Assembly (NCBI GenBank): GCA_013823055.1
Contig: PNLN01000018.1
Coordinates: 1-33,796 of the forward strand
Reading direction: 5' to 3'
DNA length: 33,796 nucleotides
Source: Cyanobacteria bacterium DS2.3.42
Lineage (GTDB): Bacteria > Cyanobacteriota > Vampirovibrionia > Obscuribacterales > Obscuribacteraceae
Shown: positions 6,364 to 33,796 of the stretch, piece after piece
Position numbering within the stretch: the first letter of the stretch is position 1
How the letters are laid out: each line of letters opens with the position of its first letter
Notes under the pieces: model-generated
What the model was told of the DNA's origin: nothing
Database searches by the model: none
Seen by the model: the letters and a program-made list of their open reading frames with translations, nothing else
Position numbers and translations under genes: made by a program

Positions 6364-7541
6364 TATGTCGGAGCGCCAGTGCGCGGATCGTAAACAGCTC
6401 CGGCAAACATAATTACACGCGTAACCTTGTCCGCCATAACAAAAAGGAACGGTCGATCTACCGTCATTTCAAAGGGTGGTTTAGGCATATGCGCGCTGCC
6501 GTAGGCAGTAACACAAGTGGCTGCAGCGGCTTCAGTGCCTAGTTCATTCACGTCTATGAACGCTTTATGCATTATGTCTGACACGCACAAGAAAGGAGGC
6601 TTTTGCTGCTCAGGTGCAAGTATGTTCCACAGATCGGCCTGCGGAGTGAAAAGCTCTTTTATGCCGATTTGCGAAAGCCAGGAAACAAGCGAGACTCCAA
6701 ATTCCATGCAAAATTTGGGAAATGCCAGCTGCCCTTCTCGCTTGGTCAAACGCGGCATCCACGAGTCCCAGTGCTCTACAGATATTTGTGAGACGAAACT
6801 CGGCAAGTCGATGTTCTTGGCGGGCTGAATCAAATACATATTGAATCGATCGTCGGTATAAGGCAGCTGGACCATTTCCATGTATTGATCGTTGAAGTAT
6901 TCGACCTCGCGGAATCCATGCATTGTCGGCACCTGAATGACGTTGCCGTCAGACAGGTAAAAGTCGCGCGGCAGCGTTCGATTTTCCTGAAACGGTGTTG
7001 ACCAGCGCGCTCTGAAGTATGCGCAATTGAGCAAAACGAAATAGTTGGCCGGAGTCAGTTGCGTAACTATCGAAGGAATCTTTCCGAAAGTTTTTTGACT
7101 CACCCAATTGTTTATCGTTTGAATTGAACTACCATTGCCAAAATCAAGGTTCGCACATTCCGCTGCGTACTGGGTTTGCACATGATCGGCAAACCCTGGA
7201 TGCACCTGGACACTTTGATGAAACCAGGCAGAATTGGCAAGCAAAAATTTTACCGACGCGCCCTCGCCTTTCCACTGCGATTTGTCATTGGTTTCATTCA
7301 AACTGTCAAATACGGTTCGATAATCGAGAGCCAATTCATCACGCCCGAATGAATGTAGACCCAGTGTTTGAAGCATCTCGCTAAGCGTGTTTCCACCTGC
7401 AGCGGCAACCGTCAACTGGAGAGCAGCGCTGATACTTAAAGGTGAAATGCAGATGTTGCTTTTGTGTACACCTAAATGATTCATCAAGCGGAAGCATAGA
7501 TTCGAAGTAGATCTGGCGGTATCGCCTGTGCCTGTCGTCAT
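6360..7541 (-). CDS. Serpin-family protease inhibitor
   Basis: 393 aa: [47 protein letters not shown], hinge/reactive loop [45 protein letters not shown]. Confidence 0.93.
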
Positions 7542-9010
7542 GCAACCACCTTGTCGCGCAATGCGATTCGCTTCGCCACTGAAGCCCCCGAATGAAGTCC
7601 GCCTTCCATATACCCTTGAAACGCAAAGCTTGTATGTTCACCTGCGAAATGCAGACGTCCAAGTCCACCATAAAGTATTGGTCCCAGCGTAATAATCTGT
7701 CCAGGAGCCGGAGCTGAATAACCGGCTTGCGACCAGGGATCCGATGGCCAATCGACAAAAATGCCTTTGATAAAGTTTTGAGCGTAGCGTGGATAAATAC
7801 GCTCCAGCTCAAGAGCATAATGCGCCATTCTTTGATCGTGCGTCCAGCCTCTGCCCGTGTCGGCCGCGTTTCCTCCAGCAAAAACAGTCAGGCAAGCATG
7901 TCCTTCGCTTGATTGTTTGTCAGTTGCATCCCAGGTCTCGGCCACTGGTCCATCACTCAGAGAATTGGGTGAGAGATTATCCTGCTCCCAAAATCTGCTG
8001 CGCACTTCAGAGAGAAACTTCACTTGATTCGACATCTGCGGTGACAGCTGCGGCGGAAAAGGCGGAGTAAAAGTGATTCTCTTCCAGGTGCCTGGTGGCA
8101 CGCTCAGTATCACATCATCAGCTTCCAGAACTTCTCCGTTTGCAAGCTCTACCTTCACTTTATTGTCCAGCACATCCACAGCAGTAACAGGCATTTCCAA
8201 ACGAATACGCTGTCTTCCAATGGCATCCGCCAACTTCTCAGCTAATTGCTGATTACCGCCCTTGCAGCGATAGACTTCAGTGTCGGTCCAATATTTCTCG
8301 AGTCCGCCACCTTTGATAATACATAGGCGCCCGAGCAAACTTTCCCAGCCTGGGTCATTGGCATCAGATGATTCCGACAATCGAATCGCTCGCTTGCAAA
8401 GCTCTGAGCACTTGAGGTCGTCTATCCAATTGTCGACTGTCTTGTTGTCGAGGGCCAGCGCATTAGGACTTCGCCAGGGCTGAACAGGATCGATCTTTAA
8501 TGCCAGCGCGTTGTAAAGGTTCAGCTGCTCGTCGACTTCATGCCACAAATTTTCAGCCTCTTTAGGACTGAGCAACTTGCCACTGAAAAAACAAGGCTTG
8601 GCGCTGTCCGGGTAATCTGTGCGCTCCAGCATCTCCAACTTGAAGCGTTTCGCATAAGCCTGCCAGGTGGGGTGATTGGCGCCGATCAGCTCCGCTCCCG
8701 CTTCTACAGTTTTATCCCGGATGAAATCATAGAGGGTGTGGACGCGCCCACCGACTCGATCGCGCGCTTCCAAGACAGTCACGTCGTAGCCCACAGAAGA
8801 CAATTCGTACGCGGCTGCCAATCCCGAAAAGCCCGCACCTATAATGATTACACGCCTTCCGTCTTTGGCAAAACTAGTGGAGGGGAAGGTGTAGCTGAGC
8901 ATGAGCCCGGCTGCTGTTGCCATCATGCCCTTCAACATTTCTCGGCGCGAGAATCTCTCTTCCCTGGAAAGAAATCTCTGGCTGAGTTCTGAAACGAAAG
9001 AGCGTGACAT
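7538..9010 (-). CDS. Flavin-containing amine oxidase with predicted Tat signal
   Basis: Twin-arginine motif SRREMLKG then hydrophobic stretch; FAD motif [42 protein letters not shown]-terminal [31 protein letters not shown] track extends to 9085; MSRSFVSE at 9010 preferred. Confidence 0.9.
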
Positions 9011-9146
9011 GTTTCGCCGGTCCCCCACGGCAATGTTTTTAAGTGCCAAAACAAGCATACTAAAAACTTGCCACCTTTCCCGCACATCCAGACTGCTTGA
9101 CTAGGTGCCTCGATCAAAGGTAAGTTTGGATTTGGGAGGGGAATAC

Positions 9147-10725: not shown

Positions 10726-11241
10726 CTAGATGTTTTTCCAAATTGAGTTGTAAACCTCAATTCCACCCAACCACACACTGCCTACACTGCCGCTGGGGTA
10801 GACGAAGACAAAATATTTATCCGATTCGGACCAGTTGCTGCCGGTTTCTTCGGTAGCGCTCATTAGCTTTGCAAATTCAAATGCATTCAATTGCTTGGAT
10901 TGACGGGCCAGAAGCGCCGGAACTCTAGCAGGGCTATTAGCCGCGGCCTCAAGCAACTGGCTTACTCTTGTAAAAATATCGGCCGGGACACTTGCAGGCT
11001 CTTTTGTGGAAACAGTCGCCCCTGCTACAGAAGTGGCAGAAGTCTGTACTCTTTCCTTTTCTGCAGATTCAAGCTTTGGAAGATTGGTCGCTGTAATGCG
11101 AGCAGAGTTCTTCTCTGCGGCGCCTTTACTCCAGTCGAACATCTCGGACAAAGTGTTGAGAGCATAACTGGTGTCAGACGCCTGGACGGAGGAAACCTGT
11201 GGCAACAAAGGGAGCGCAAGGCTGGGGGATACGGGGGTCAT
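10726..11241 (-). CDS. Hypothetical protein, tandem paralog of 11377..11847
   Basis: 171 aa; shares DWSKGA and C-terminal RVPALLARQSKQLNAFEFAKLM...YPSGSVGSVWLGGIEVYNS with its neighbour. Confidence 0.75.
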   Translation of the reverse strand: MTPVSPSLALPLLPQVSSVQASDTSYALNTLSEMFDWSKGAAEKNSARITATNLPKLESAEKERVQTSATSVAGATVSTKEPASVPADIFTRVSQLLEAAANSPARVPALLARQSKQLNAFEFAKLMSATEETGSNWSESDKYFVFVYPSGSVGSVWLGGIEVYNSIWKNI

Positions 11242-11376: not shown

Positions 11377-11847
11377 TTAGGATCTCCGGACAAGCGAACT
11401 ATAGACTTCAGCTCCGCCCAGCCAAACACTGCCTACCTCTCCATTTGGATATCTGAAAATATAGAAGCGCTCCTCGTCAAACCACTGGTTGCCGCGCTCT
11501 TCAAGGGCATTAATTAATCGAGTGAAGTCGAATTTGCCCAACAGTTTGGCTTCTTTGGCAAGTAGCTCCGGAACTCGAATCTTGCAGGCATGGGTCATAT
11601 TGACTAGCAGCTGTACTTTTTCGGCAAGTTGGGCCTTATTCAAAAACTGACTGCTGCAAAAACCATCAGCACATTCAACCGCCTTGGGTTCAGGCACTGA
11701 CTCAGACTTGACCGCAATTAAATTGGTGTAAGTGCGGTTGGCTTTGCTTTTGGTTGCTCCTTTGCTCCAATCCAGGGCGCCCAAATGAACGCTCAGCTTG
11801 TAGCTTACGGAGGCTTGTGACACAGGCATAACAGATGTGTGGTTCAT
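11377..11847 (-). CDS. Hypothetical protein, tandem paralog of 10726..11241
   Basis: 156 aa; ...DWSKGA...RVPELLAKEAKLLGKFDFTRLI...YPNGEVGSVWLGGAEVYSS. Confidence 0.75.
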   Translation of the reverse strand: MNHTSVMPVSQASVSYKLSVHLGALDWSKGATKSKANRTYTNLIAVKSESVPEPKAVECADGFCSSQFLNKAQLAEKVQLLVNMTHACKIRVPELLAKEAKLLGKFDFTRLINALEERGNQWFDEERFYIFRYPNGEVGSVWLGGAEVYSSLVRRS

Positions 11848-19159: not shown

Positions 19160-19378
19160 ATTTCTTTTTTCTCATTTTGGATGCATCGCGCGCAAAGCGC
19201 GAAATTCGGCACGTCCAGCGCCCGCCAATTCCACTTGACATCGATCATGCGGGAAGATTAGCAATATATGGCCTGTTTGCCGCGTTTCCAAGAAATTGCC
19301 GTGTTATCATTGCTCCATTGACAAGGCCAAAAGCCGTGTCAGTTGACAGTTCCTAGCCGATTCCGAACCGATAAGCGA

Positions 19379-19867
19379 ATGGTCCGAGTTATATATCCTG
19401 GCTCATTCGATCCTATGACTTATGGGCATTTGGACATCGTGTCACGGTCAAGCAAATTGTTTGACGAAGTGATCATGGCAGTCGTTGGTAACCCCGGGAA
19501 ATCCCCGCTACTACCGATTGAAATGAGAATGGAGTTAATCAGCGAAGCCGTAAAGGATCTGAAAAACGTTTCTGTAGGATCTTTTCAGGGTCTTACAGTT
19601 GATTACGCCAAACAGAACGACATCAAAGTTCTGATTAGGGGGCTGAGGGCTATTTCCGACTTCGAAGCGGAGTTGGGAATGGAGCAGGCGAATAAGCAAC
19701 TGTTTCCTGAACTAGAAACTATTTTTCTCATGACAAAAGCCGAGTATTCTTTTATCAGTTCATCCACTGTGAAGGAAATTGCCCGCCTCGGCGGTGACGT
19801 ATCCCAGTTTGTCCCCCCACCTGTGAACGAATACCTGAAGAGGCATTTCAGCAGAGGCACCAAATAG
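19379..19867 (+). CDS. coaD: Phosphopantetheine adenylyltransferase
   Basis: MVRVIYPGSFDPMTYGHLDIVSRSSKLFDEVIMAV...LIRGLRAISDFEAELGMEQANKQLFPELETIFLM...FISSSTVKEIARLGGDVSQFVPPPV. ATG at 19379 preferred over 19343. Confidence 0.97.
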   Translation: MVRVIYPGSFDPMTYGHLDIVSRSSKLFDEVIMAVVGNPGKSPLLPIEMRMELISEAVKDLKNVSVGSFQGLTVDYAKQNDIKVLIRGLRAISDFEAELGMEQANKQLFPELETIFLMTKAEYSFISSSTVKEIARLGGDVSQFVPPPVNEYLKRHFSRGTK

Positions 19868-20554
19868 ATGACGACGCTAACCGTATCTCCGCAACAACAG
19901 CAGCAAGCAACTGCAGCAACCTACAAGCAAACATCGATATATAAACATCTCGATCTGCTTGAGCATCTTATAGATGACGCTGTAGGCGTGTACAAATACA
20001 AACTCATCAATGCTGACGAGTTTCTCGATGTACTCGACAAAGCTCGCGCTCGCTTGCCGGAAGAATTGAAAGAAGCTGGAGACGTTCTTCAGCGCCGCGA
20101 CGAAATTCTGGGAGAGTCCCAGCGCCGCTCCGAACAAATTATCGCTACCGCTCGCCGGCAAGCCGAAAACATGTTGCACGAATCCGAGCTTCTCAAAGCC
20201 GTGCAAGCTGAAGTCGAGCGTATCCGCAAGCAAGTAGTTTCAGAAGTCGAACAAATGCGCAGAGAAGCTCTGGCAGAAGCTGAAAAGATTCGCCTGGAAG
20301 CAGAAGAGCATGCAGCCGCCACCCGCGAAGGTGCCGACCACTATGCTGAAAATGTGCTGACTCGCATAGACAGCGATTTGCAAAACCTCGGACAACGTCT
20401 GGTTGAATCACAAACTATTGTGAGAAACGGACAGCGTCTGCTCGGACAAGTGAAGCGTCACCCTTCGGCACCTGTTTTGAACGCTGCTTCGGCAGTTTCA
20501 GCAGTCGCCGGACTAAACAGCCCACTTCTCGGTGCAAATCTACCGCAACAATAG
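19868..20554 (+). CDS. DivIVA-like coiled-coil protein
   Basis: 228 aa, long charged coiled coil (RRSEQIIATARRQAENMLHESELLKAVQAEVERIRKQVVSEVEQMRREALAEAEKIRLEAEEHA); starts immediately after the coaD stop. Confidence 0.7.
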   Translation: MTTLTVSPQQQQQATAATYKQTSIYKHLDLLEHLIDDAVGVYKYKLINADEFLDVLDKARARLPEELKEAGDVLQRRDEILGESQRRSEQIIATARRQAENMLHESELLKAVQAEVERIRKQVVSEVEQMRREALAEAEKIRLEAEEHAAATREGADHYAENVLTRIDSDLQNLGQRLVESQTIVRNGQRLLGQVKRHPSAPVLNAASAVSAVAGLNSPLLGANLPQQ

Positions 20555-20578
20555 TTGCAGTACACCAAAGAAATTGAA

Positions 20579-20610
20579 AACTCCCGAGTTTATCCCGGGA
20601 GTTTTTCTTT
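20579..20610. terminator. Bidirectional Rho-independent terminator between convergent genes
   Basis: AACTCCCG...CGGGAGTT hairpin with T-run on the plus side (GTTTTTCTTTT) and TTTTCAATTT on the minus side. Confidence 0.8.
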
Positions 20611-20660: not shown

Positions 20661-23600
20661 CTAAGACACCGATGAGGACAATCCCATCAAGGCTGCTTTC
20701 ACAGCGTCATTGCTGACAGCGGAGAGCAAGTCATCAAAGTTATCGTTGGTGATGAAGGTGTGGTTGACCTTCAGACCGGCGATATCGGGGTTGTTCGTGT
20801 CTGCAGCGTAAACCGCTTTGATTGCCTTAGAAAGTGCACGCACTTCGTCGATACCATATGTGCCACCACCGGCTGCAAGAATTCTTTCAGCGGTCTGCCA
20901 TGGACCTTCGCCACGACGCACAGTAGCCAATGCAATCAAGTCTTCTGTCGGCATTGGCTGAGTCGGAACCACTGGAGTTTCTACTGGAGGTTCAAAGTCC
21001 AAGGTATTCTCCGCGATGTCTACAGCATTGCTTGTTGCTACGGCCACTTTCGGCAGAACTGTAGCCAGATCGGCCGCTGTGTTTATGACTTGCGGAAGAG
21101 CTGTTGCAACATCATCGCCAAACTTCGCTGCAGTTGTTGCAATGTTATCGCTGACGTTTGCTAATGCCGCGCCGGTGTTGTCGACCACAGCTGCCAATCT
21201 AGTATTTGCAAATGCATCCGGTAATTTCCACGCTTCAGGACCGTTAATGATCGGTCCACCGTTGGTAAATGCTTCCGGAAGCTTCCAATCTGCAGGACGA
21301 TTGAACATCGGTTCGCCCAGGTTATCAGCAGTTTGAAGATTCGGTCCGATCATATTGTTGTTTGCCGGCACCGGAATTCTCGTACCATCCTCCATCACAT
21401 AGTGGAGCTTGCCGTCTACAGTGACAGTTCTCTTAACGCCGGCTGGAAGCGCAGCAGTGTCAGCTACAACCGGCTCCGGAATTGCCTTTGTTCCGGCAAC
21501 GACAGCATCCTCACCGAATTCGAATGCTAATTGAATTGGGGGCTCGCTAGCTACAATGTTAGTTGTCGGCAGGTCGTTGATGACGTTTCCTGTTGTGTCC
21601 AGGTTTTCAGCCAAATTTCCTGTCACAGTGGTGGCATCTACCGCCTCACTGGAGGCTCTAATTGCGGTAACTGGTACTTCTACAACTTCTTGACCAGCCT
21701 TCGCCGCTGCCAGAGTTTCTGTACTGGCTTTCATAACTTCTGCAATGGGTGTTCCGCCTTTGTAGGCAGTGAAAGCCGCTCTGGCAGTGTTAGCAAGGAG
21801 GTTGACTCCGAGAGTTCCGCCAATATCGATAGTGCTCTGAAATCCGAGATCAATTTGTTCTTGCGTGGTAAGGGTGCCGCCCTCGATGTATTTCATCAGG
21901 TTTGTGCGGTTTGCTGCTGTTCCAAGCACAACAGAAAGACCGACTGCACCAGTAACACCACTCCAGCAAGTAGCGATCGTTCCAGCAATTACGATTGCAT
22001 CAAGTGCTTTCTGCGCCAGATCAGCGACATTAGCTTTCGTCTCGAGATTGTTGCGGAGCGCTTCTCTGAAGTAATCTTCAACGGCTTGCAGGGCTTCAGG
22101 AGGAAGCTCTTCTTTAAGGGAAGCGTATTGCTGAATCAAAGCTTGATTACGTTGCAGAGCGGTCAAAACTTGATCATGAGTGGGATCTATGACCATACCG
22201 TCTTGGGAGAAATTGTAGGTTCTATCCAGAAAGTCTTGAATTGGATCGGAGTCTTTCGAACTAAGCAAGGTGCTCAGCGCGATGGTGTCAGCATAATTTT
22301 CACCGGCGAGACCGATTACATCGGCTTCCATGTCGGCATCGTATTTATCAGCATAGGAAGATTTGAGTGATTCGATTTGTTCTGGCGACAAACGTGCCAG
22401 CGCGTCTTCAAAACCGCGATAGGACTCTCCGCCGTCAAGCACGGCAAGACGCATCATATCTTCCAATTCAATGTCAAAACCCTGACTCTGAATTCGTTGT
22501 AGGAGTTGAGTGTATTCCTCGTTGTTATTCTCACTGATTGCTTGGTTTATGAAATCCGCGCCAAATGCAACTTTATACTTCGCTTCGTAATCAGCCATAA
22601 ACTGATTCCTACCAGCTTCATCCAGACTGGCCAAATGAGCAAGGGTGTCGCGGAATGTGTCGGGCTGACCGGCACCATGACGTCCAGAGCTATCGTTTAT
22701 GTCATAAATGCGGGCATAATCAACCGGCAAAGTTTCGCCATTTTGCTGATTAATAACGTCTTGAACTGCTTGCTTTTCAGCACCCAAGAAAGCGTATTCA
22801 TGAGCATAAGTTTCTTGGTTGTTCTCGCTCTTGCTCATTTGGTACCGACCGGAATAGTCGGTAAGTCCAACCGGAGCTGCATCATCTCCCAGCACACCAA
22901 ATCCCAAAGGAATGCCATTTCCATTCAGCATTTCCGACAACGCTACATCATTGACGCTAGGGTCCAGCACTTGCATCGTGCCCATCAATGTTCTGTCGAA
23001 TAGCGAAGCTTGGTGATAAGGATCCGCATGCATTTTGTCCAACATGGCGGCATACTTCGGATCTGCATAAATTTGCATCATAGCCGTCAGTCGTTCTGCC
23101 GTGGCTTGATTTTCTTCGCTGTTCTCCGTGTCCAACTCGCCGTTCATCATCTTGCGAACGATCGTTTCAACAGGACCTTCAACAGGTGGCTTGCCAGTCT
23201 CACCAACTTGCTTCAGCATCATTTGCGCATAAAGCATTGCTTGCTCGCCGCCTTCGTTGCCGAAGTGGAACTGTTCGGTGCGCCATACGGTACCAAAAAC
23301 AATCGAGTCTACTTCTTCCTTAAAGGAGGGATCGCTTGGATCCATGTACTTCGCAACATCTTCTGCGGACATGTGAGCAATTGCATCAGCAAGTTTGAAA
23401 GGATCTCCTTCCGGTCCTTCATTCTCGATCAATACGTCCATTAAGTCATTGCGAGCAATCTCGACTTCACCATGCGATGGAGCATCTGCAACTTGCTTCA
23501 GCAAGCCAGTCAAACTCTCGGCAACTTCAGGAGATGAAGAATATCTCTGTACCAGATTTCTCAGGTTGGACAGGTAAGCAGACTCAGCACCACCCTCGGT

Positions 23601-24938
23601 GTGAAGTCTCTTCCAGTCAGCCTCACTCATTTGCTCGATAGCAACCTTGATCACCTGGTCGGTGAGCTTCCCATCAATACTCGCTTGAGCAAGAGTAGAA
23701 AGCATGGTGCCTTCACCGTGGATCAGCTTATCGCTCCAGATAATTGCTTGATCTTCGCCGCCGATTGAAACAAAAGAGTTGTTCAGCTCTTGGTAGTACT
23801 GCTTAGCTTGCAGTTGTTCGCTATCCAATTCGGTGTCAGGCGTATTAACCAGCTCCTGCCCTTTGGCAAAAGTAGCCCGATCCTCTGGCTGAGCGAAGGC
23901 GATTTCATCATCAATGTTACCGTTAACGTCGCTGAACGGGTGCCAACCTTGGTATGGAGCAACATTGTCCAAAACGGTGGCTGTACCATGCTGCAAGTAT
24001 GAGTCTGCCATTGGCAGGTCACCAAATGCAGTGTTGTAGATCAACCCGAAATTAGCATCGGCACTCAATGCATCTCTTACTGGAGCGTTTGCACCAATCA
24101 AAGATTGAAACACATCCAATCCGTAAGCAGCGTCGGTATGACCGTAGGCTACGTTGGTTGCAACACTCCTGGCAGCACCAACAACCTCAGCCAAAGTGGC
24201 GCCGTCCTGGCCCTTCATGTAGAGACTTTCTGTCAATTCTTTATCAATAGCTGGAATATTCGATTGCTTAATAGCATCGAGAAGCGAAAGGTCGCCGTGG
24301 CGGTCAGCAAAATTCGCGTTCCAATCTGCTTCCGCTCTGGCTACATCTGCGCTGTTCATTCCACTAAACGTCATTCTCAATTGACGTCCAGCCTCTTCGC
24401 TCTGACCACTGGCAGCCATTACGAGCGCAACATTCAAATTACCAGCGAAATTTGTGCCGGCATCCGTGGTCATCAGCTTTGATTCGAGTCTGGCAAATTC
24501 TATGGCAGGCATGACTTTGCGCAAGTCATCAAGCAACTTTCCGGTACCGTCCAGGGATTCATAGGTCTGAGCAACACGCACGAAATCTTCCTGACGAAGA
24601 CCGGATAGCGTGACATACAAACTATTGGTATCAACAGCATGACCCAGGGTGAATATCTGATCCAACACGCTTGGGTTTAAGGTAGCTTTGATTTCTTCCG
24701 CTTTTGCCAGGTCCGCTGCCGGTGTCATGAGGCGAACTTCGTTTGCGTCTACTAGCGACTGATTGCCGGCATCTGGCGTATTGAGAACGAATTCGAACTC
24801 AGCGGCACCAGCAATGACTCCGGTAGTTGTATCTTCCTTAGTCGGAAGCACATCATTGCAAATTGCTTCGTCGGCCACATGACTAGACGTCGTGGTTCCG
24901 GACTCTTGTGGTATTTCGCAGACTTTATCACCGGCCAT
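20661..24938 (-). CDS. Giant protein, paralog 1 (1425 aa): helical body, hydrophobic segment, V/A/P linker, LysM-like C-terminus
   Basis: Continuous ORF; ATG at 24938 with GGAG upstream. C-terminal MPTEDLIALATVRRGEGPWQTAERILAAGGGTYGIDEVRALSKAIKAVY... aligns with the next two genes. Confidence 0.93.
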   Translation of the reverse strand: MAGDKVCEIPQESGTTTSSHVADEAICNDVLPTKEDTTTGVIAGAAEFEFVLNTPDAGNQSLVDANEVRLMTPAADLAKAEEIKATLNPSVLDQIFTLGHAVDTNSLYVTLSGLRQEDFVRVAQTYESLDGTGKLLDDLRKVMPAIEFARLESKLMTTDAGTNFAGNLNVALVMAASGQSEEAGRQLRMTFSGMNSADVARAEADWNANFADRHGDLSLLDAIKQSNIPAIDKELTESLYMKGQDGATLAEVVGAARSVATNVAYGHTDAAYGLDVFQSLIGANAPVRDALSADANFGLIYNTAFGDLPMADSYLQHGTATVLDNVAPYQGWHPFSDVNGNIDDEIAFAQPEDRATFAKGQELVNTPDTELDSEQLQAKQYYQELNNSFVSIGGEDQAIIWSDKLIHGEGTMLSTLAQASIDGKLTDQVIKVAIEQMSEADWKRLHTEGGAESAYLSNLRNLVQRYSSSPEVAESLTGLLKQVADAPSHGEVEIARNDLMDVLIENEGPEGDPFKLADAIAHMSAEDVAKYMDPSDPSFKEEVDSIVFGTVWRTEQFHFGNEGGEQAMLYAQMMLKQVGETGKPPVEGPVETIVRKMMNGELDTENSEENQATAERLTAMMQIYADPKYAAMLDKMHADPYHQASLFDRTLMGTMQVLDPSVNDVALSEMLNGNGIPLGFGVLGDDAAPVGLTDYSGRYQMSKSENNQETYAHEYAFLGAEKQAVQDVINQQNGETLPVDYARIYDINDSSGRHGAGQPDTFRDTLAHLASLDEAGRNQFMADYEAKYKVAFGADFINQAISENNNEEYTQLLQRIQSQGFDIELEDMMRLAVLDGGESYRGFEDALARLSPEQIESLKSSYADKYDADMEADVIGLAGENYADTIALSTLLSSKDSDPIQDFLDRTYNFSQDGMVIDPTHDQVLTALQRNQALIQQYASLKEELPPEALQAVEDYFREALRNNLETKANVADLAQKALDAIVIAGTIATCWSGVTGAVGLSVVLGTAANRTNLMKYIEGGTLTTQEQIDLGFQSTIDIGGTLGVNLLANTARAAFTAYKGGTPIAEVMKASTETLAAAKAGQEVVEVPVTAIRASSEAVDATTVTGNLAENLDTTGNVINDLPTTNIVASEPPIQLAFEFGEDAVVAGTKAIPEPVVADTAALPAGVKRTVTVDGKLHYVMEDGTRIPVPANNNMIGPNLQTADNLGEPMFNRPADWKLPEAFTNGGPIINGPEAWKLPDAFANTRLAAVVDNTGAALANVSDNIATTAAKFGDDVATALPQVINTAADLATVLPKVAVATSNAVDIAENTLDFEPPVETPVVPTQPMPTEDLIALATVRRGEGPWQTAERILAAGGGTYGIDEVRALSKAIKAVYAADTNNPDIAGLKVNHTFITNDNFDDLLSAVSNDAVKAALMGLSSSVS

Positions 24939-24947
24939 AGTAAATCG

Positions 24948-24967
24948 GCTCCTGGGGAGAGGGGAGC
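24948..24967 (-). promoter_or_regulatory. Leader hairpin overlapping the Shine-Dalgarno of giant paralog 1
   Basis: Minus strand GCTCC-CCTCTCCCCA-GGAGC immediately upstream of CGATTTACTATGGCC. Confidence 0.45.
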
Positions 24968-25113
24968 TAACAAAGAAATTGCAAGGGGATTTGGAGATTC
25001 GCAGCCGTTTCTAGGGCTGGCGAGACTAATCTACCAACAGCCCATGACATTCGTATGACGACCTGTCATACAAGGCAAGAACCCAGCTCTGTGGGGATAA
25101 ACTTGAACACCGG

Positions 25114-25146
25114 CAAAAACTCCCGGGGGAAATCCGGGAGGTTTTG
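25114..25146 (-). terminator. Rho-independent terminator of giant paralog 2
   Basis: Minus strand CTCCCGG...CCGGGAG followed by TTTTTG, downstream of the stop at 25184. Confidence 0.75.
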
Positions 25147-25183
25147 CTCTTGGCGATCAGTTGAAACTTTTGGGGTTGTTGAA

Positions 25184-28100
25184 CTAGGACACTGGTGCAC
25201 CTTGCGCCATGTTTAGCAGAATGGCTTTAACTTCCGCGTTGTTGCAGGCGGCGATCAAATCGTCGAAGTTGTCTTTGGTCACAAAGTTGTGTCTGACTTT
25301 CAGCCCGCCCATGTCGCCATTGCCGCCATTTTCAGCTTTAAAAACAGCCTGGAAAGCTTTGGTCAAGGCTCGTACTTCGTCAACACCGTGCGGCTTGCCA
25401 TCGGCAGCTAGAATTCTTTCTGCCGACTGCCACGGGCCTTCGCCGCGCTTCACGGTAGCCAATTCGATCAGTGCATCACTGGGAAGTGGAACGGCGGGTT
25501 GGACCGGTTCTGGCACCGGTGCTACTTCTGTAAGTTTGTCAGCCACTTCGCTCACAACCATTGGTGCTACAGCCGGCTGAATCAAGCGGGAAGCACTAAA
25601 GCTCTTCCAAGCGTTCAAACGAGCGTCTTCAAATGCTTGAGCGGTCACTGCTTGTCTTTCCACAACAGCAGCCTGAGCTTCTTTCTGTCTCAAAGTGGCG
25701 AGCATACGTTGCGCAACAGTGTCACCATTATTTGCGGCTGTTTCTACTTCAGCTCTAGTAAGACGTCCGGCTGCGACATCTTCTTCCATCTTTGTCAGTC
25801 TGGCGGCGTCATCGACAACATCATCGGCAACTTGTCTTCCAGCGTTGAGGGCTGCAACTTCAGCAACCGGTTCATCGGCGACTTTGATTCCTGCGAACGT
25901 AGCATCATCAATCACAGCCTCTTCGACTGGGAAAGCGGCCGGTGCTCGCTTCGCTGCTGCAGTGGCTTCGAGACCTTCCTTTTCACCAACTACTGCGAGA
26001 TCTCCCTGTTGTACAACAGCTGCCGGTAAGGACTCTGCCGGTGCGGAAATTTCTGCGCGGACTTTTGCAATCGCTTGCTCCCAGGCGGCAAAGTCGATAG
26101 GACCGGCACCTTGAGCAGGACGAAGGTTTCGGACATCGACCAGATGATCGGCCCAATCAAGAGTGTATTTCGGATCCAATTCGTTTGCTGCACGGAGGAA
26201 TGTTTCCATTTCAGACGGTTCAATCAGTCTCATCCAGCTTCCAATCGCAACATCAGGATGCTTCGCGAGCGCTTCCTTAACTAAAGCGACGCGGTCTTCA
26301 GGTGCGGCATTCTTGATCATATTTCCGAGATCAACGAATCCGGTTTCGGGAATGTCGAACTTGCGAGCTTCTTCAACCACACTGGCGGCAATATCAACTG
26401 GTTGCAGGACGCCATCATTTGCTATCACTTCGGGTACAGGCAACGCTTCGTCCACAGTTTGGACATTAGCCTGCACCGCTGGCTTGTCTGCCGCACGCAC
26501 AAGATTTTCGCTGGTTGCTTCCACAACAGTAGATGGTGCGGGCAAAACTTGTGCAACCTTCTCGGTTGTTTCCTCAACCACTACAGGTACAGGCAAAACT
26601 TGTGCCACCGTTTCCGCAGCATCATCCACCACTTGTCCAGCCAGTGTCTCTGCGCCTTCCTCGATAACCTTGCGATCAACTACGGCAGCTGCGGTAACCA
26701 CTTTTCCGAGGCTCAATGGAACGCCCATTGCGCCTTCAACCGCGCCAACCAATCCGAGCTTGAGCATATTTTCCGGGCTGCTGTCGAAGGTACCACCTTG
26801 CATTTCTGCAATCATTGCAACTCGGGCTGTGCCGCCGGCTGTAGCATAGGCTGTGACCATACCGAGACTGACACCACCGGTTGCCGGAGTAAGTGCAATC
26901 GCTGCTGCAATTGTGGCAGCAGTGATTGTCATATCGGCGACGAAGTGAGCATATTTCTCATTGGAATCCAGGTTGTTTTGATAAACCTTGCTGTAGTACT
27001 CAGCCATTGCGTCCTGAGCTTCTTCAGGCAGCTTTACCATCTGGTCGTTGAAACGGCGCAGAATATTTTCATTGATTTGAAGCATGCGCTCATGAGCTTC
27101 CGGACTTCCATCAAATGTACCGAGTTTTTCGAAGCGTGCCATGCGTTTGAAGAAAGCATCGACACCATCTACTTCTCCGAGACTCAAATAGTCACTATAT
27201 CTGTCAATATCTTTTGCAGGGACGGTGTCCAGGAATTTGTCATCGAGGTTGCCTTTATACTCTGACGAATACAATTTCTTCAGGTCGAATGCTTGCCGCG
27301 GGGTCAACTTGGACAGCTCTGCGCGGAAATCGGAGTATTTGGCGCCTTCGGAGGAGCCCGTCACAAAGAGTTGCAGGCGATCTACGAGTTGCAAGTCGCC
27401 TTTATTCTCGATTACTCGCTCCCAGACTTTCTGCGCAGCTTCCGACAAATCGCTTTTGCCAAGGCTGGCACGTGCTTCTGCAAGCAAGTCACGTTCGGTG
27501 CCGAATTCAGATCTATAGGCTCTATCGAGCTCTCTGCGTTTTTCTTCAGGAAGTTTTGAATACTCTTCCATCAAAGGAGCGATATTTCCGCCTTCAACAG
27601 CGTACTCGCGGAAGCGTCCGGCCAGATCGAGAGTGCCGCCATTGCGCACTGCGTTATCTACCAATTGTTGCTGCTCCGGCGTCAGTCTCAGCTTTGCACG
27701 CTCGCTTTCCGAAAGACGAGCTACATCTTCATATCTGCCGGCCAGCCAATCACCTGGCAATACTCGCGACAGACCTATTTTGGTATTAAAAGGAACTTCC
27801 CCGTCATTCAGCAAACGCTGGAAGTTGGATTGCATTTCGGGCATCATGCCCAGGCCGACGCCGGGAGTGTCGAAAGTCCCTGCGCCAATTGCGAAAGCCT
27901 TGGAGTCCGAAGGAATAGCGTTGTTGAAAATGCTGTAGAGAAGTTCGTCTTGAGCGTTGATTTCACCTACCAATTCGCCATTTTGACGTTGGCGAATTTG
28001 CTCGTCGACCAGCTTCATTCTGGCTTGCAGCTCGGGATCTTTCATAAGCTCTTCGACTTGAGAAATTTCCTTGAGCTCTCTTTGAGCTTGCCCCTGGAAA

Positions 28101-29842
28101 TCTGTTGTTGCCGGTGCAGGCTGCATTTGTCCGCGCAAGAATTGTTCGAGTTTGACCTGGGTAGTGGTCTTCTCTTTTCCAGCCGATGCCAGTTGGAGAT
28201 TCACAAGCGCTTCTGCGTTTGGTTCGCTCACATATCTGCTTACGAAGCCGTCCACTTGTCTTTTGAATTCCGGACTGGAGCTGTATCTTTGCGCTTCTTC
28301 AGGGGTGAGATTTGATAAGCGGTCGACAATCTGTTTGTCTGCGTTGTAAGTGCCGGAGGCGGCGAGATCGGTCATGAATTGATCGAGCGAGCGTCTAACC
28401 GAAAGAGAATCCGTGTAACCTGCTGGATTAGAATCGGTCGTCTTAACTTCAACATTCAACTTCGCGTTGACCATCTCCATTACAGAATTGCGAAGCGCTT
28501 CGTCGGTAATCATGGCAGCGATTTGGCGGTCGAATTCTTTCTTGTATTCAGGGTTGCGCAAGAGGCCATATTCGCGGGCAGTCATGTTCTCAACTGCGGC
28601 CAGTGCGTCGTGATTGTAGAAGCCTTTACCAAATCCGAGAGTGCCTTCGCTGTAGGTGCGGGCAATATCGGAGATGAGAGTTCTTTCGCCGTGGAGCAAC
28701 TCGTCCTCGAGTACAGCTCTTTGCGCTAGCGATACATCGTTCATCGCTTTAACAAGATCGGTGTATTTGCGAACCGCTTCTTTCTCCACAGCTGTTGCCG
28801 GCTCACGACCTGATTCAACAATCTCGCGACCGACTCTGAAAGCCTGGCGATCTTGCTCGGGTGCATTGGCAAACGTCACACTGGTGTTTTCCAGATTGCC
28901 GTGAATGCCCTGTGCGTCTCCGGTCAAGACGGCATCAAGTGCTATTTTTCCTTTTCTCAAAGCTGCCGATACTTCTTGATCGAGCACCATAACCATTTGT
29001 CCGTTCTGATCGATCTCCACACCTGGAAACTTCGAAGTGGCATCTTTCATGAATTTCTCATCGGCGAGCAAATCGGCTCTGGCATAGATATCTTTATCAT
29101 CGTCACCGGCCAGAAGATTGATGAGCATCCTGCTGTCGCCACCTTCCACAGCCAGATTTGCCATCGCGACAATCTGTTCGCGACCGATCTTGTCGGAGCC
29201 TTGCAACAAAATATCGAAAATTGCTTTCGTTTGTGGCGAAACGACCGACTCATCCAAGTCTTGAATCGCTTCAGCAAGCGTAGTTCCAAAAGCTTCTTTG
29301 TAGTCCTGATTAAGAGTAGCGATTTGAGTGCTTCTCTTACCGGAAACAACCGCACGAAGAAGATTCATTCCCTTTTCCGGGTCGTCCGACAAAGTGGACA
29401 TAGCCACGCGAGCATTTCCTGCATCACCAGTGGCAGCCTTGGCATTCATCAATACTTCAATGGCAGCGTATTCAGGTGAGCCTTCAGTAAGGTAATACTT
29501 CGCATCGTCCCAGAACTTGCTTTCGCCCTGGTCGTATCTTGCAATCAATTCCTGTCTGCCCTGAACAGTCATGCCGCTAAGTATGTTGGAAAGTTTCTCG
29601 GCATCGGGCGACTGCCACGCCCAGTTTCCTGTCAACTCTTCACGAACCAGGTCTGCGCTTTGTTGAACTTGAGCTTCAGCTTCCGTATCGACGATTTCTA
29701 CTGGGGCCAGAACTGCTTGTGCAGTATCTTCACCGGCATGCTTCGGATCGAAAGTGCAGGCGAGCGCTTCGGCAGCAACGTGTTCGGTAGTTGCCGGTGT
29801 TTCGCACTTCTTCTCAGTGGCTTTGTCTGTAGTTTCGGCCAT
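25184..29842 (-). CDS. Giant protein, paralog 2 (about 1552 aa): same architecture
   Basis: Continuous ORF; ATG at 29842 (MAETTDK) matches the ACTATGGCC start context of paralog 1; the ORF-track start at 29860 is a TTG inside the SD region. Confidence 0.93.
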   Translation of the reverse strand: MAETTDKATEKKCETPATTEHVAAEALACTFDPKHAGEDTAQAVLAPVEIVDTEAEAQVQQSADLVREELTGNWAWQSPDAEKLSNILSGMTVQGRQELIARYDQGESKFWDDAKYYLTEGSPEYAAIEVLMNAKAATGDAGNARVAMSTLSDDPEKGMNLLRAVVSGKRSTQIATLNQDYKEAFGTTLAEAIQDLDESVVSPQTKAIFDILLQGSDKIGREQIVAMANLAVEGGDSRMLINLLAGDDDKDIYARADLLADEKFMKDATSKFPGVEIDQNGQMVMVLDQEVSAALRKGKIALDAVLTGDAQGIHGNLENTSVTFANAPEQDRQAFRVGREIVESGREPATAVEKEAVRKYTDLVKAMNDVSLAQRAVLEDELLHGERTLISDIARTYSEGTLGFGKGFYNHDALAAVENMTAREYGLLRNPEYKKEFDRQIAAMITDEALRNSVMEMVNAKLNVEVKTTDSNPAGYTDSLSVRRSLDQFMTDLAASGTYNADKQIVDRLSNLTPEEAQRYSSSPEFKRQVDGFVSRYVSEPNAEALVNLQLASAGKEKTTTQVKLEQFLRGQMQPAPATTDFQGQAQRELKEISQVEELMKDPELQARMKLVDEQIRQRQNGELVGEINAQDELLYSIFNNAIPSDSKAFAIGAGTFDTPGVGLGMMPEMQSNFQRLLNDGEVPFNTKIGLSRVLPGDWLAGRYEDVARLSESERAKLRLTPEQQQLVDNAVRNGGTLDLAGRFREYAVEGGNIAPLMEEYSKLPEEKRRELDRAYRSEFGTERDLLAEARASLGKSDLSEAAQKVWERVIENKGDLQLVDRLQLFVTGSSEGAKYSDFRAELSKLTPRQAFDLKKLYSSEYKGNLDDKFLDTVPAKDIDRYSDYLSLGEVDGVDAFFKRMARFEKLGTFDGSPEAHERMLQINENILRRFNDQMVKLPEEAQDAMAEYYSKVYQNNLDSNEKYAHFVADMTITAATIAAAIALTPATGGVSLGMVTAYATAGGTARVAMIAEMQGGTFDSSPENMLKLGLVGAVEGAMGVPLSLGKVVTAAAVVDRKVIEEGAETLAGQVVDDAAETVAQVLPVPVVVEETTEKVAQVLPAPSTVVEATSENLVRAADKPAVQANVQTVDEALPVPEVIANDGVLQPVDIAASVVEEARKFDIPETGFVDLGNMIKNAAPEDRVALVKEALAKHPDVAIGSWMRLIEPSEMETFLRAANELDPKYTLDWADHLVDVRNLRPAQGAGPIDFAAWEQAIAKVRAEISAPAESLPAAVVQQGDLAVVGEKEGLEATAAAKRAPAAFPVEEAVIDDATFAGIKVADEPVAEVAALNAGRQVADDVVDDAARLTKMEEDVAAGRLTRAEVETAANNGDTVAQRMLATLRQKEAQAAVVERQAVTAQAFEDARLNAWKSFSASRLIQPAVAPMVVSEVADKLTEVAPVPEPVQPAVPLPSDALIELATVKRGEGPWQSAERILAADGKPHGVDEVRALTKAFQAVFKAENGGNGDMGGLKVRHNFVTKDNFDDLIAACNNAEVKAILLNMAQGAPVS

Positions 29843-29853
29843 AGTAAGTTTAG

Positions 29854-29872
29854 GCTCCAAGGGAAAGGGAGC
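29854..29872 (-). promoter_or_regulatory. Leader hairpin overlapping the Shine-Dalgarno of giant paralog 2
   Basis: Minus strand GCTCC-CTTTCCCTT-GGAGC upstream of CTAAACTTACTATGGCC. Confidence 0.45.
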
Positions 29873-30042
29873 AGGAAAAGAATTTAGGGGCGCAGGGGAT
29901 GCGGGGGTCGCGGGCTACTTGAACATAGTCGCTGAGAGTTCGTGATTTTGGCGTTATTCTGCGAAACACCAAACACCTGGCGAGCGATTGCGGGGTCAAA
30001 GGCTGGTTCGCTGTTTGATAAGGTGATTATGTTTCACAACAC

Positions 30043-30069
30043 ATAAAAATCACGTGAGAAACACTCACG
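30043..30069 (-). terminator. Rho-independent terminator of giant paralog 3
   Basis: Minus strand CGTGAG-TGTTT-CTCACG-TGATTTTTAT, downstream of the stop at 30124. Confidence 0.7.
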
Positions 30070-30123
30070 ATGGACGCACACCGTGTCGATAAACTTAAAT
30101 CCAACGAAAGTAGAATCGCTCGG

Positions 30124-33100
30124 TTAGTTCTTAGCCAGCGAAAGCAATACAGCTTTCACCTTTTCGTCCTTACAGTTGGCCACGATGTTGGCGAAAGTAT
30201 TGGCTGAGGTGCCGGCGAAGGAGTACTTAACCTTAAGACCGCTCATATCGCCATTGCCACTATTGTCGGCCTTGTAAGCTGCTTGAATGGCCTTGGTCAG
30301 TGCTCTCACTTCGTCGACCGAATGTTTCTTCCCATCAGCCGCCAAAATCCGCTCGGCTGTTTGCCATGGACCTTCACCCCGTCGTACGGTAGCAAGCTCC
30401 AAAAGCTTGGCGCTAGGCTGCAGCGGTTGTTCGACTGGTTTGGGCAATTCAGCCGCGTCCGCAAGTCGGTCTACAGCTAGTGTCGGTAAGACGCCCAATT
30501 TCATGAGCTGCTCGGTCTGACTGGCAACCATAGCGGTGCGAGCAGCTTCCGCCTTTCTCAAGGCAGCCAATGCTTCGATCGCCTTCGCATCACCTTTGAG
30601 TGCGGCTTCTTCAAGTACTTTTCTGTCGAACGCCTTCAGCGCGGCCGCGGCGCCTTCATCGCCTCTAGTAACGGCTTTCTCCAATATCTGTCTGTCAAAC
30701 GCGACCAACTCAGCAGCCGTCTTGTCTCCGCGTGCGACGGCCGCAACCAATTGATTGCGATCGAAGGTTTGAAGGGCTTTCACTGCCGCAGGATCACTGG
30801 ACTCGGCCAGTTTTGCCAATAAGACTCTGTCTTCTGCCTTAAGCGCAGCGAGGGCTGCTTGGTCACCTTTGGAGGCGGTGAGCGCCAATGCTTGTCTCTC
30901 CGCAAGCAGTGTTGCCTCATTGGAAGCGCGCACCATCACGGGAGCAACTTCGGCGACTTCGGCAACTGCAGCGACTTCGGTTACGACTGGCTGTGTCAGT
31001 TTCTCACTCTTTGCGACAACGGGAGCTGCATCATGGATAACTTGAACGGCAGGAGCTGCTTCCTTAGCCACGACGGTCGGAACCACTCGAGGAACTACTT
31101 TCTCGGCTTCAGCAGCGGTGTCGACAACTTCTGCAGCGGTAACAACTCTATCGGACCTAACTCCAGTGACGATGACAGGCTCGACGCGAGCTGCGATGAC
31201 TGGCTCGACTCTAGAGCCAGCAACCACGGCTTCTAGCTTCTGAGCGGCTGGAAGTGCCTGCTCTACTCTCAGTGCCGCTGGAAGTGCTTGCTCCACTTTA
31301 GTCAGTGCAGCCACGGTCTCTGTGGCGCGCTCACCGGCTCGGATCTTGTTGAAGATTTCAACACCACGACCTACTGAGCCAATCGGCAAGAAGAGCGCTG
31401 CATCAATTCCGCCTCTGATAGCATGCTGGCGGAATTCCTCAGGCGTGATGGTTTTGCTGCCCAAAGTATTTTCCATGATAAATGGACGGGCAACCGAAGC
31501 GGCAAACCCAGTCGTAGCGATAGCGCCACCGGCAACTGGTGCGGATAGTCCAAAGGTTGCGTACATGCTGGCTGCAGCAGCGGTGACAACCGCGATATCG
31601 AGAGCTAGTTCTTTAGCCTTCGCGAGCCGTTCTTTCGAATCAAGGTTCTGTTGAGTAGCTTCGGTGAAATACTTGTCGATGCGATCGCGCATTTCAGGCG
31701 GCAGCTTTTCTCTGTTCGCCTGATATTGAGCAACCATGTCGCGATTGACTTGCAGTGCACGTTCCATGTTGATTTGCGAGCCATCGTAATTGGCGCCAGT
31801 CAAATCCATTGTCGCAGTGCGCTCGAGAAATTCAGACACGGGGTCTGATGGAGCACCTTTAAGCATCCTTTGGTAGGTGATTTTCGCTCCAGGGTTATCT
31901 ACCTGGCCGAGGAAATCTTTGTCGAGAGCAGAACCATACTTTTCGGCGTATTCAGTCTTCAACTGTTGAATCTGAACAGGCGTCATTGCCTTGAGGCGAT
32001 CTTCAAACGGCTGATAAGGGCTGGTTTTGCCATCCAAAACTTTGAGGCGCATTTCGTCAGCCAGGGTCGGCTTGAAATTCTGTCCGGCCAATTTGTCGAG
32101 AACTGTCTTGTGATCGGCTGACAAACCTTCACGTTGAACGGAACCATTAACAAATGCGGTTTTGAAATCCTGTCCGTATTTGCTTTCAAATGTCTTGAAG
32201 AAATTAGCTCTGTCGGTGTCATTCATCTTGGCGATCTTTTGAACGAAATCGCGATAATTGCCACCGTCGCCGACCAGGTAAGACTGAGCTTCGTCTGCCA
32301 GGTCTGCGGTTCCACCTTGTTTAATGACGTTTTGAACAATTTTCTGTTGCTCAGGGCTAAGCATGCCGACGATGCGATCGCGCTCGGATTGCGGTTGAAT
32401 CTTAGCGATGTCGGGATATCGTCCTTTAAAACCATCTCCGAGCACTCCGCCGCCGGCAGCGATTTTCTCACCGATGCCGATTTGTTCGCCTCGTAGCAGA
32501 TTTCTATAACCGAATTGGCTTGTCGAACTCATTAACATCGCCGAGAGATTAATGTCCTCTTGCGACAATTTGAAATCAGAAGACATGGTGCCTTTATCAC
32601 GCATGTTCTGAATCTCGTTCAATCTTGCGCGCAAAGCAGGATCACCAAGAACGAGCCTTTCTGCTGCATCGATTTTCTTGTTCGGTGTATCGAGTTTGCC
32701 GTCCATTGTGTCTTTGGCAAACTGCTGCAATGGAGTCAACTGTTGCACTGGTTTGCCGGTTTGCTCCACTTGCTTCAACAATGATTGAGACAAAACTGTT
32801 GCCGCAAGAGCTTTGTCATCAATGCCTGAAGTCTGATTTAGAACGTCACCAGTCTGCTTGATCAAGGCAGGATTATTTTTGAGATCCTGTGCTTCCTTAG
32901 CAGTCATGGTCAGGAGGCGCTCGGTGATTGCTTTCTTGCCTTCCGGAGAAGATGCTGCATCGGTGACGACTTCACCGAAAGTGCGTCGGACTTGCTGCGA
33001 TGCTTCAAATGAAGGTGCTTTTGCTTTACCGTCCAGAATTCTTTCCAGAATTGGTCTCTCTTGCTCAGTGGCGTATTTGAACACCGAAGCCTTTAGATCC

Positions 33101-33796
33101 TTCATATATGCGGGATCTTTCAGCTGCTTCCACTGATCGGGCGTCATGTTTTCAAAGACTTTGAACAAATCTTGAGATGTATGTCCGGCGCCGATACCGA
33201 ACAAGCCACCATCGCTGTGCGTAGCTGCAGCGTCGGAGATCAGTCCTTTTTTACCGGTCACCAATTGCTCGGTCCAGGCAGCGGCTTGACGCTCTCCACC
33301 CTTCTCTCTGAAGGTTTCATCCAGCTTCCTAAAATAAGCGAGCTGGTCTTTTTGTTGGGCATTCAGTTTGCTGGGGTCGGTATTTTCAGCAGCCAGTGCT
33401 CTGCCGGCTTTGAAATCGGCTATTTCTTTGGGAGTGGCACGGGATAGTGCGCCACTGATCAAGTCCGGATTGTCGAAAAAACCGCCCAGGGTCTTGGCGT
33501 TGCCACTAACGATCGTGGAAAGGGAAATACGCCCTTCGGTAAGCAAATCTTGGGCAACTCTTTTTTGCGTGTCATTTGCCCAGGTGCTCGGTCCGAATGC
33601 TTTGTCATAAGCATCGGTGAATGCTTTGTCGCCTTGCAGTGCTTTTCGTGCAGCTACAGCGGCAGGACTGTCACCGGCCAGAACATCGGACAATTGGCGC
33701 AGATACTTGTCGGCATTGGCGCTGCTGCTTTCAGTGTCGTTGTAGTTGTTGACGACAAGGCGGGCAGCAGCAGCGATATCCTCGGGGGTTCTTTGA
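30124..33796 (-). CDS. Giant protein, paralog 3, 5' end truncated by window edge (>1210 aa)
   Basis: ORF-track start at 33693 is a TTG; the frame stays open to 33796 (...TPEDIAAAARLVVNNYNDTESSSANADKYLRQLSDVLAGDSPAA...). Confidence 0.92.
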   Translation of the reverse strand, partial: QRTPEDIAAAARLVVNNYNDTESSSANADKYLRQLSDVLAGDSPAAVAARKALQGDKAFTDAYDKAFGPSTWANDTQKRVAQDLLTEGRISLSTIVSGNAKTLGGFFDNPDLISGALSRATPKEIADFKAGRALAAENTDPSKLNAQQKDQLAYFRKLDETFREKGGERQAAAWTEQLVTGKKGLISDAAATHSDGGLFGIGAGHTSQDLFKVFENMTPDQWKQLKDPAYMKDLKASVFKYATEQERPILERILDGKAKAPSFEASQQVRRTFGEVVTDAASSPEGKKAITERLLTMTAKEAQDLKNNPALIKQTGDVLNQTSGIDDKALAATVLSQSLLKQVEQTGKPVQQLTPLQQFAKDTMDGKLDTPNKKIDAAERLVLGDPALRARLNEIQNMRDKGTMSSDFKLSQEDINLSAMLMSSTSQFGYRNLLRGEQIGIGEKIAAGGGVLGDGFKGRYPDIAKIQPQSERDRIVGMLSPEQQKIVQNVIKQGGTADLADEAQSYLVGDGGNYRDFVQKIAKMNDTDRANFFKTFESKYGQDFKTAFVNGSVQREGLSADHKTVLDKLAGQNFKPTLADEMRLKVLDGKTSPYQPFEDRLKAMTPVQIQQLKTEYAEKYGSALDKDFLGQVDNPGAKITYQRMLKGAPSDPVSEFLERTATMDLTGANYDGSQINMERALQVNRDMVAQYQANREKLPPEMRDRIDKYFTEATQQNLDSKERLAKAKELALDIAVVTAAAASMYATFGLSAPVAGGAIATTGFAASVARPFIMENTLGSKTITPEEFRQHAIRGGIDAALFLPIGSVGRGVEIFNKIRAGERATETVAALTKVEQALPAALRVEQALPAAQKLEAVVAGSRVEPVIAARVEPVIVTGVRSDRVVTAAEVVDTAAEAEKVVPRVVPTVVAKEAAPAVQVIHDAAPVVAKSEKLTQPVVTEVAAVAEVAEVAPVMVRASNEATLLAERQALALTASKGDQAALAALKAEDRVLLAKLAESSDPAAVKALQTFDRNQLVAAVARGDKTAAELVAFDRQILEKAVTRGDEGAAAALKAFDRKVLEEAALKGDAKAIEALAALRKAEAARTAMVASQTEQLMKLGVLPTLAVDRLADAAELPKPVEQPLQPSAKLLELATVRRGEGPWQTAERILAADGKKHSVDEVRALTKAIQAAYKADNSGNGDMSGLKVKYSFAGTSANTFANIVANCKDEKVKAVLLSLAKN
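30560..30900 (-). repeat. Five degenerate 22-23 aa coding repeats (consensus like DRxxLxxAxxRGDxxAxxALxAF) in giant paralog 3
   Basis: ERQALALTASKGDQAALAALKAE / DRVLLAKLAESSDPAAVKALQTF / DRNQLVAAVARGDKTAAELVAF / DRQILEKAVTRGDEGAAAALKAF / DRKVLEEAALKGDAKAIEALAAL. Confidence 0.85.

Follow-up and report, generated by a model that had tools for sequence, protein, structure and literature searches.

The last part of a 33,796-nucleotide stretch of DNA from Cyanobacteria bacterium DS2.3.42 (contig PNLN01000018.1, positions 1 to 33,796; the whole stretch is hereafter the window) was occupied by three consecutive giant genes, P1, P2 and P3. The listing of open reading frames (ORFs) placed all three on the minus strand at positions 20661-33795, where a first-pass annotation, made from the sequence alone, had described them. 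P1 (20661..24938) encoded 1425 amino acids (aa). The P2 frame ran for 1558 aa from a TTG and for 1552 aa from a better ATG at 29842 with a GGAG Shine-Dalgarno sequence, giving a gene at 25184..29842. P3 (30124..33795) encoded at least 1223 aa, its frame still open where the contig ends and its 5' end cut; judging by orthologs, around 230 codons, including an N-terminal repeat pair, lie off the contig.

P1, P2 and P3 are paralogs over nearly their entire length. The BLASTP match between P1 and P3 covered residues 251-1121 (E 1e-62), P2 matched P3 at 6e-56 and P1 at 4e-13 and 3e-10, and the C-termini formed separate pairwise matches (E 4e-24 to 6e-34), as expected from the earlier proposal that the likeness extended beyond the C-terminus. 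The order of parts described at that time was also found to be real: helical modules, a hydrophobic stretch, a linker rich in Ala, Val and Pro (16-24% Ala, 10-14% Val) and a C-terminal domain of about 95 aa. The P2 core was 65% identical to that of its ortholog in Cyanobacteria bacterium PR.3.49, and the two genes differed by 0.31 nonsynonymous (dN) and about 2.4 synonymous (dS) substitutions per site; therefore, the P2 frame is under purifying selection. Each giant was followed, on the strand that encodes it, by a terminator-like hairpin (20577..20605 after P1, 25120..25140 after P2, and hairpins at 30053..30085 after P3), found in a scan that as a whole was barely above shuffled expectation. 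These hairpins, together with intergenic gaps of 245-281 bp, suggest that the giants are separate transcription units.

Identity of the repeats

Annexins, whose fold binds membranes, are familiar mainly from animals and plants. The first-pass annotation could assign the giants to no known whole-protein family, and this held, as P1-P3 searched alone against Pfam and NCBIfam gave nothing above cut-off, with a weak Annexin score in P3 only, and P2 alone had no phmmer match in PDB. The modules of the type LxxLxPxQxxxLKxxYxxKY do belong to a known superfamily, the annexins: we are highly confident that they are annexin-type repeats in degenerate form, an assignment that is firm for the family as a whole and has good support in the window copies.

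An alignment of 24 family members (A1) retrieved annexin VI from PDB at 6e-23, and the Pfam Annexin model (PF00191) matched 13 of 24 family members, the best at 1.2e-21. Starting from a textbook repeat of L067 (GAGTDE), a repeat profile made with jackhmmer recovered four repeats in P1, four in P2 and two in the cut P3, with E values from 2e-3 to 1e-17; the best window repeats scored 1e-13 to 1e-17 with this hidden Markov model, and the best value from block-shuffled window proteins was 0.14. In P1, the repeats lay at aa 96-148 (24495..24653; weak, with an independent E-value, i-E, of 2e-3), aa 181-233 (24240..24398; i-E 2e-6), aa 761-799 (22542..22658; i-E 2e-7) and aa 825-880 (22299..22466; i-E 3e-15, and 1e-9 against PDB annexin VI with the genus-only profile described below). 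Those of P2 lay at aa 69-111 (29528..29656; i-E 9e-7), aa 163-201 (29258..29374; i-E 4e-6), aa 746-809 (27434..27625; i-E 1.5e-13) and aa 825-884 (27209..27388; i-E 1.5e-14). P3 retained repeats at aa 499-550 (32146..32301; i-E 1.3e-14) and aa 577-633 (31897..32067; i-E 1.2e-17), a sub-region of the latter reaching 2.9e-4 with Pfam Annexin, below the curated cut-off.

Because iterative profiles can drift, a genus-only profile (A5) was built from repeat pairs of the window and the same genus, among which the GxGTD motif was absent. This profile matched annexin VI in PDB at 1.1e-9, and apart from alpha-11 giardin, an annexin relative, every protein in the significant ranks was an annexin. The paralog L102 matched annexin V at 5e-7 as a single sequence in phmmer. 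Foldseek searches with AlphaFold models, among the checks first suggested for these proteins, returned annexins for the core and no match for the C-terminal domain. Six sequences (window and L042 only) went into the P2 core model, whose mean predicted local distance difference test score (pLDDT) was 60.6, rising to about 70-85 across the C-terminal repeats, and whose predicted template modelling score (pTM) was 0.38; annexin VI ranked first (E 1.6e-3, probability 0.97), and other annexins followed with probabilities of 0.84-0.99.

An annexin repeat is a unit of about 70 aa and five helices, and the modules matched its sequence profile, the window sequences alone scoring below the Pfam cut-off. 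Four consecutive repeats were not found; the repeats formed two pairs about 500 aa apart, with marginal repeats only in the middle, where degenerate ones may also lie. The calcium motif GxGTD (type II site GxGT[D/E]) occurred in none of the window repeats, and the pattern G.G[TS][DNG] occurred in 11 of 163 family repeats.

Family core, appended domains and the C-terminal domain

The core shared across the family was all-helical, spanned about 1000 aa and consisted of the N-terminal repeat pair, a helical middle of about 500 aa, the C-terminal repeats and an Ala/Gly-rich hydrophobic hairpin. Hydropathy placed the hairpin at approximately aa 970-1050 of P1 (21789..22031; peak 1.62 at aa 981), aa 970-1065 of P2 (26666..26953; peak 1.71 at aa 973) and aa 725-815 of P3 (31351..31623). 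The core profile matched 58 ORFs in the fetched regions. Among the genomes sampled, which are drafts (the window's own is 64% complete), the core was present in 44 of 50 from the same taxonomic family, with at most 20 matches per genome (one long gene may yield two or three) and the longest open frame at 5727 aa, and in none of 291 others from the phylum. As judged from these profiles, the giants are a lineage-specific family of bacterial annexin-repeat proteins in which a constant core carries swapped appended domains.

The appended domains were diverse. L102:2313-6536 (G017:C53), a single ORF of 1408 aa with annexin repeats at about aa 47-202 by plain phmmer, joined the family core to two GGDEF domains (GGDEY and SGDEY) and is by its domain matches an annexin-diguanylate cyclase fusion. 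Some paralogs carried FHA and transglutaminase-like peptidase domains, and the C-termini of two, L081 (about aa 2499) and L092 (about aa 2642), held a dual-specificity/tyrosine phosphatase whose HCx5R motif was intact. L073 carried a methyltransferase and a metallopeptidase as well as a weak HExxH stretch resembling the core domain of extracellular contractile injection systems (eCIS), and RHS repeats and HExxH metallopeptidase domains were found on several paralogs. GGDEF and FHA domains act in the cytoplasm. When a strongly hydrophobic stretch was sought by hydropathy only, with no dedicated predictor, a signal-peptide-like N-terminus was seen in 0 of 53 family members.

The window trio ended in a domain of 95 aa, named GEGPW here, located at aa 1332-1421 of P1 (20676..20945; jackhmmer 4.5e-35), aa 1461-1553 of P2 (25202..25480; 1.7e-39) and aa 1128-1223 of P3 (30127..30414; 1.3e-41). 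The same domain was present in the orthologs and in a set of proteins of about 300-530 aa, several with EF-hand-like motifs. Short proteins combining EF-hand-like motifs with GEGPW were seen at L047:12463-13887, L083:2624-4204, L084:3879-5000 and L085:3601-5091. The occurrence of GEGPW on both giants and EF-hand proteins suggests a common partner. An alignment with LysM (PF01476) was in register (GEGPWQxAERIL / GDxLWxIAxxxL; hhalign E 0.0014 at a probability of only 17%), and L047 formed a bridge between the two, as its C-terminal part matched Pfam LysM at 2e-4; kinship between GEGPW and LysM is suggestive only. Neither a model from five sequences of the window and L042 (pLDDT 75) searched with Foldseek nor a GEGPW profile searched against PDB gave a match, and the domain is small and, as modelled, probably helical.

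Among P1 and its orthologs (L043, L044 and L045), pairwise identities were 55-73% for the C-termini vs 28-39% for the bodies. The initial idea of diversification around a fixed C-terminal module was thus correct within the genus, where this domain is the most conserved piece, but reversed for the family, where the annexin core is fixed and the C-terminal module is swapped.

Locus and divergence of the array

In two relatives (G002 and G006), the gene order was RDD-like, SpoIIM-like, two genes of 360 and 150 aa, P3, P1, DivIVA-like, coaD and histidine kinase, with the names of these neighbours assigned by reading the sequence and not by search; in the window and in PR.3.49, P2 sits between P3 and P1. 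The window's DivIVA-like coiled-coil gene (19868..20554, plus strand) formed the downstream border of the array, being 94-98% identical in genus relatives with its order kept, and coaD (19343-19867) lay beside it in the conserved flank. The RDD-like and SpoIIM-like genes and the two that follow were seen directly upstream of the P3 ortholog at L043:3219-6753 (G006:C9), and also in L042 and L045. Continuation of the array past 33796, raised in the first-pass annotation, is unlikely because this membrane-protein cluster, and not another giant, precedes the P3 orthologs; from this synteny, the array is probably complete at three genes. It is possible that the cluster is a functional neighbour of the giants, located beyond the end of the window's contig.

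In the family tree, the P1 copies formed one clade and the P3 copies its sister clade, with P2 separate and near a gene of another genus. Between genomes whose DivIVA-like, coaD and kinase flanks were 93-98% identical, P3 was 45-86% identical and P1 31-40%. Synonymous sites of the giants were saturated, and the flanking genes had dS values of 0.17-1.3. P1, third and most downstream in the array, diverges far faster than its flanks. The pattern as a whole is explained as well by an exchange of old alleles as by accelerated evolution combined with weak codon bias.

Elsewhere in the window, a 393-aa ORF of serpin-like appearance (6360-7541, minus strand) adjoined a monoamine oxidase-like gene (7538-9085), and two small adjacent paralogs on the minus strand (10726-11241 and 11377-11847) had the C-terminal motif YPxGxVGSVWLGGxEVYxS in common.

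Proposed role and known relatives

We favour, with confidence no better than even, a reading in which the giants are non-secreted, membrane-docked annexin scaffolds with exchangeable outputs. The proteins would remain in the cytoplasm and dock on the inner face of the membrane through the annexin repeats and the hairpin. Docking may depend on calcium in those relatives whose GxGTD is intact; the window copies, having lost the motif, would dock without calcium or under the control of a partner. Once docked, the protein would use its linker to present the GEGPW domain to a partner shared with the GEGPW-bearing EF-hand proteins, and in sister proteins the same platform would display FHA, diguanylate cyclase, phosphatase or peptidase domains.

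Several points weigh against this scaffold. Membrane docking and calcium binding are both inferred from sequence, the calcium motif is gone from the repeats of the window, and the hydropathy of the hairpin was borderline for a membrane segment. The core model had low overall confidence, and its Foldseek match to annexin VI fell narrowly short of 1e-3. The rapid divergence of P1 is odd for a plain scaffold, and the paralogs with RHS and HExxH domains would fit exported effectors equally well.

The most serious alternative, which we judge rather unlikely but far from negligible, is that the giants are polymorphic conflict effectors, exported without a signal peptide, in which a C-terminal payload would pass through a target membrane, or become attached to it, with the aid of the annexin repeats and the hairpin. 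Precedents exist, as single annexin domains in toxins of Photorhabdus virulence cassette secretion systems (PVC-SS) were interpreted as accessories for breaching membranes (PMC3482391), and annexins that occur together with toxin and DUF4157 domains were reported from bacteria (PMC3894181). The RHS repeats and the HExxH and phosphatase ends of the paralogs, and the low identity of P1 between near-identical flanks, also favour effectors. However, the contractile sheath PF04984 was found in 0 of 50 family genomes, while the control was found in 3 of 14 (sheath families of the type VI secretion system were not searched); the eCIS core domain had no match in the window's own genome either, although its control was also silent and this result is uninformative. 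The window giants end in GEGPW with no Pfam toxin match, no immunity-like gene occupies the gaps between them, and the GGDEF (and FHA) paralogs are hard to square with export. A more speculative reading, to which we give slightly less credence, is a lineage-specific bacterial annexin system that combines one docking core with many outputs, including cyclic di-GMP (c-di-GMP) synthesis, and in which the last array gene is a hypervariable slot, replaced or diverging between close relatives, which would hint at self-recognition or conflict.

A role as a scaffold of the cell surface or cell wall, with the C-terminal domain as a LysM-type wall binder and the giants forming an outer matrix, appeared improbable. 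The in-register LysM alignment and the L047 bridge speak for it, but the LysM link is not established, with no PDB or Foldseek match; the surface or matrix role considered in the first-pass annotation was left unsupported because no family member had a signal-peptide-like N-terminus and paralogs carried GGDEF and FHA domains, cytoplasmic by nature. That the annexin likeness reflects general helical-repeat similarity, the giants being generic scaffolds of an unrelated new fold, is very improbable: Foldseek also returned HEAT-type and TPR-type proteins, with weaker scores, and the window repeats alone stayed under the curated Pfam cut-off, but annexins occupied every significant rank in sequence-profile searches, paralogs passed that cut-off with GxGTD intact, and shuffled controls yielded nothing.

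The annexins are regarded as membrane tools that belong chiefly to eukaryotes, their counterparts in bacteria being rare. Bacterial annexins as such were already known; the new element is a giant, expanded, multi-output annexin family whose window copies lack calcium sites. In the literature searched, no paper named both Obscuribacter and annexin, and, by title and abstract, none of four that mention Melainabacteria and annexin dealt with annexin repeats in these bacteria. A family that has undergone genome-wide expansion within one bacterial lineage, whose proteins reach several thousand residues and whose fusion partners are modules for c-di-GMP, phospho-threonine and phosphatase functions, offers a tractable system for the role of bacterial annexins, and lets one ask whether regulatory use of the annexin fold predates eukaryotes. 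By comparing the fast-evolving slot between its near-invariant flanks, recognition could be distinguished from housekeeping through comparative genomics alone.

The survey of Kodavali et al. 2014 (PMC3894181) listed about 34 bacterial annexin proteins in 17 species and named no cyanobacterial or Melainabacterial member. Like the giants, those proteins have repeats that diverged from the eukaryotic ones, and they often combine several domains, enzymatic partners included, in chains of variable length. Unlike them, the window giants have lost GxGTD, largely conserved in the surveyed proteins, and the family adds a defined core of about 1000 aa, genome-wide expansion, tandem arrays and GGDEF/FHA fusions. 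The PVC-SS/eCIS annexin toxins (PMC3482391) similarly have an exchangeable C-terminal domain preceded by an annexin domain, whereas our family has no sheath gene (PF04984), several repeats plus a hairpin, and GGDEF/FHA outputs. GEGPW shares the N-terminal half motif of LysM (PF01476) in register, but is about twice as long, is modelled as helical and reached a significant profile match through one bridging protein only. With eukaryotic annexins (PF00191; annexin A5, A6), the giants share the repeat register, the predicted helices and the best profile and Foldseek matches; the eukaryotic proteins have four consecutive repeats (eight in annexin A6) that mostly bind calcium, whereas the window giants carry two pairs about 500 aa apart, without the type II calcium site and with large appended domains.

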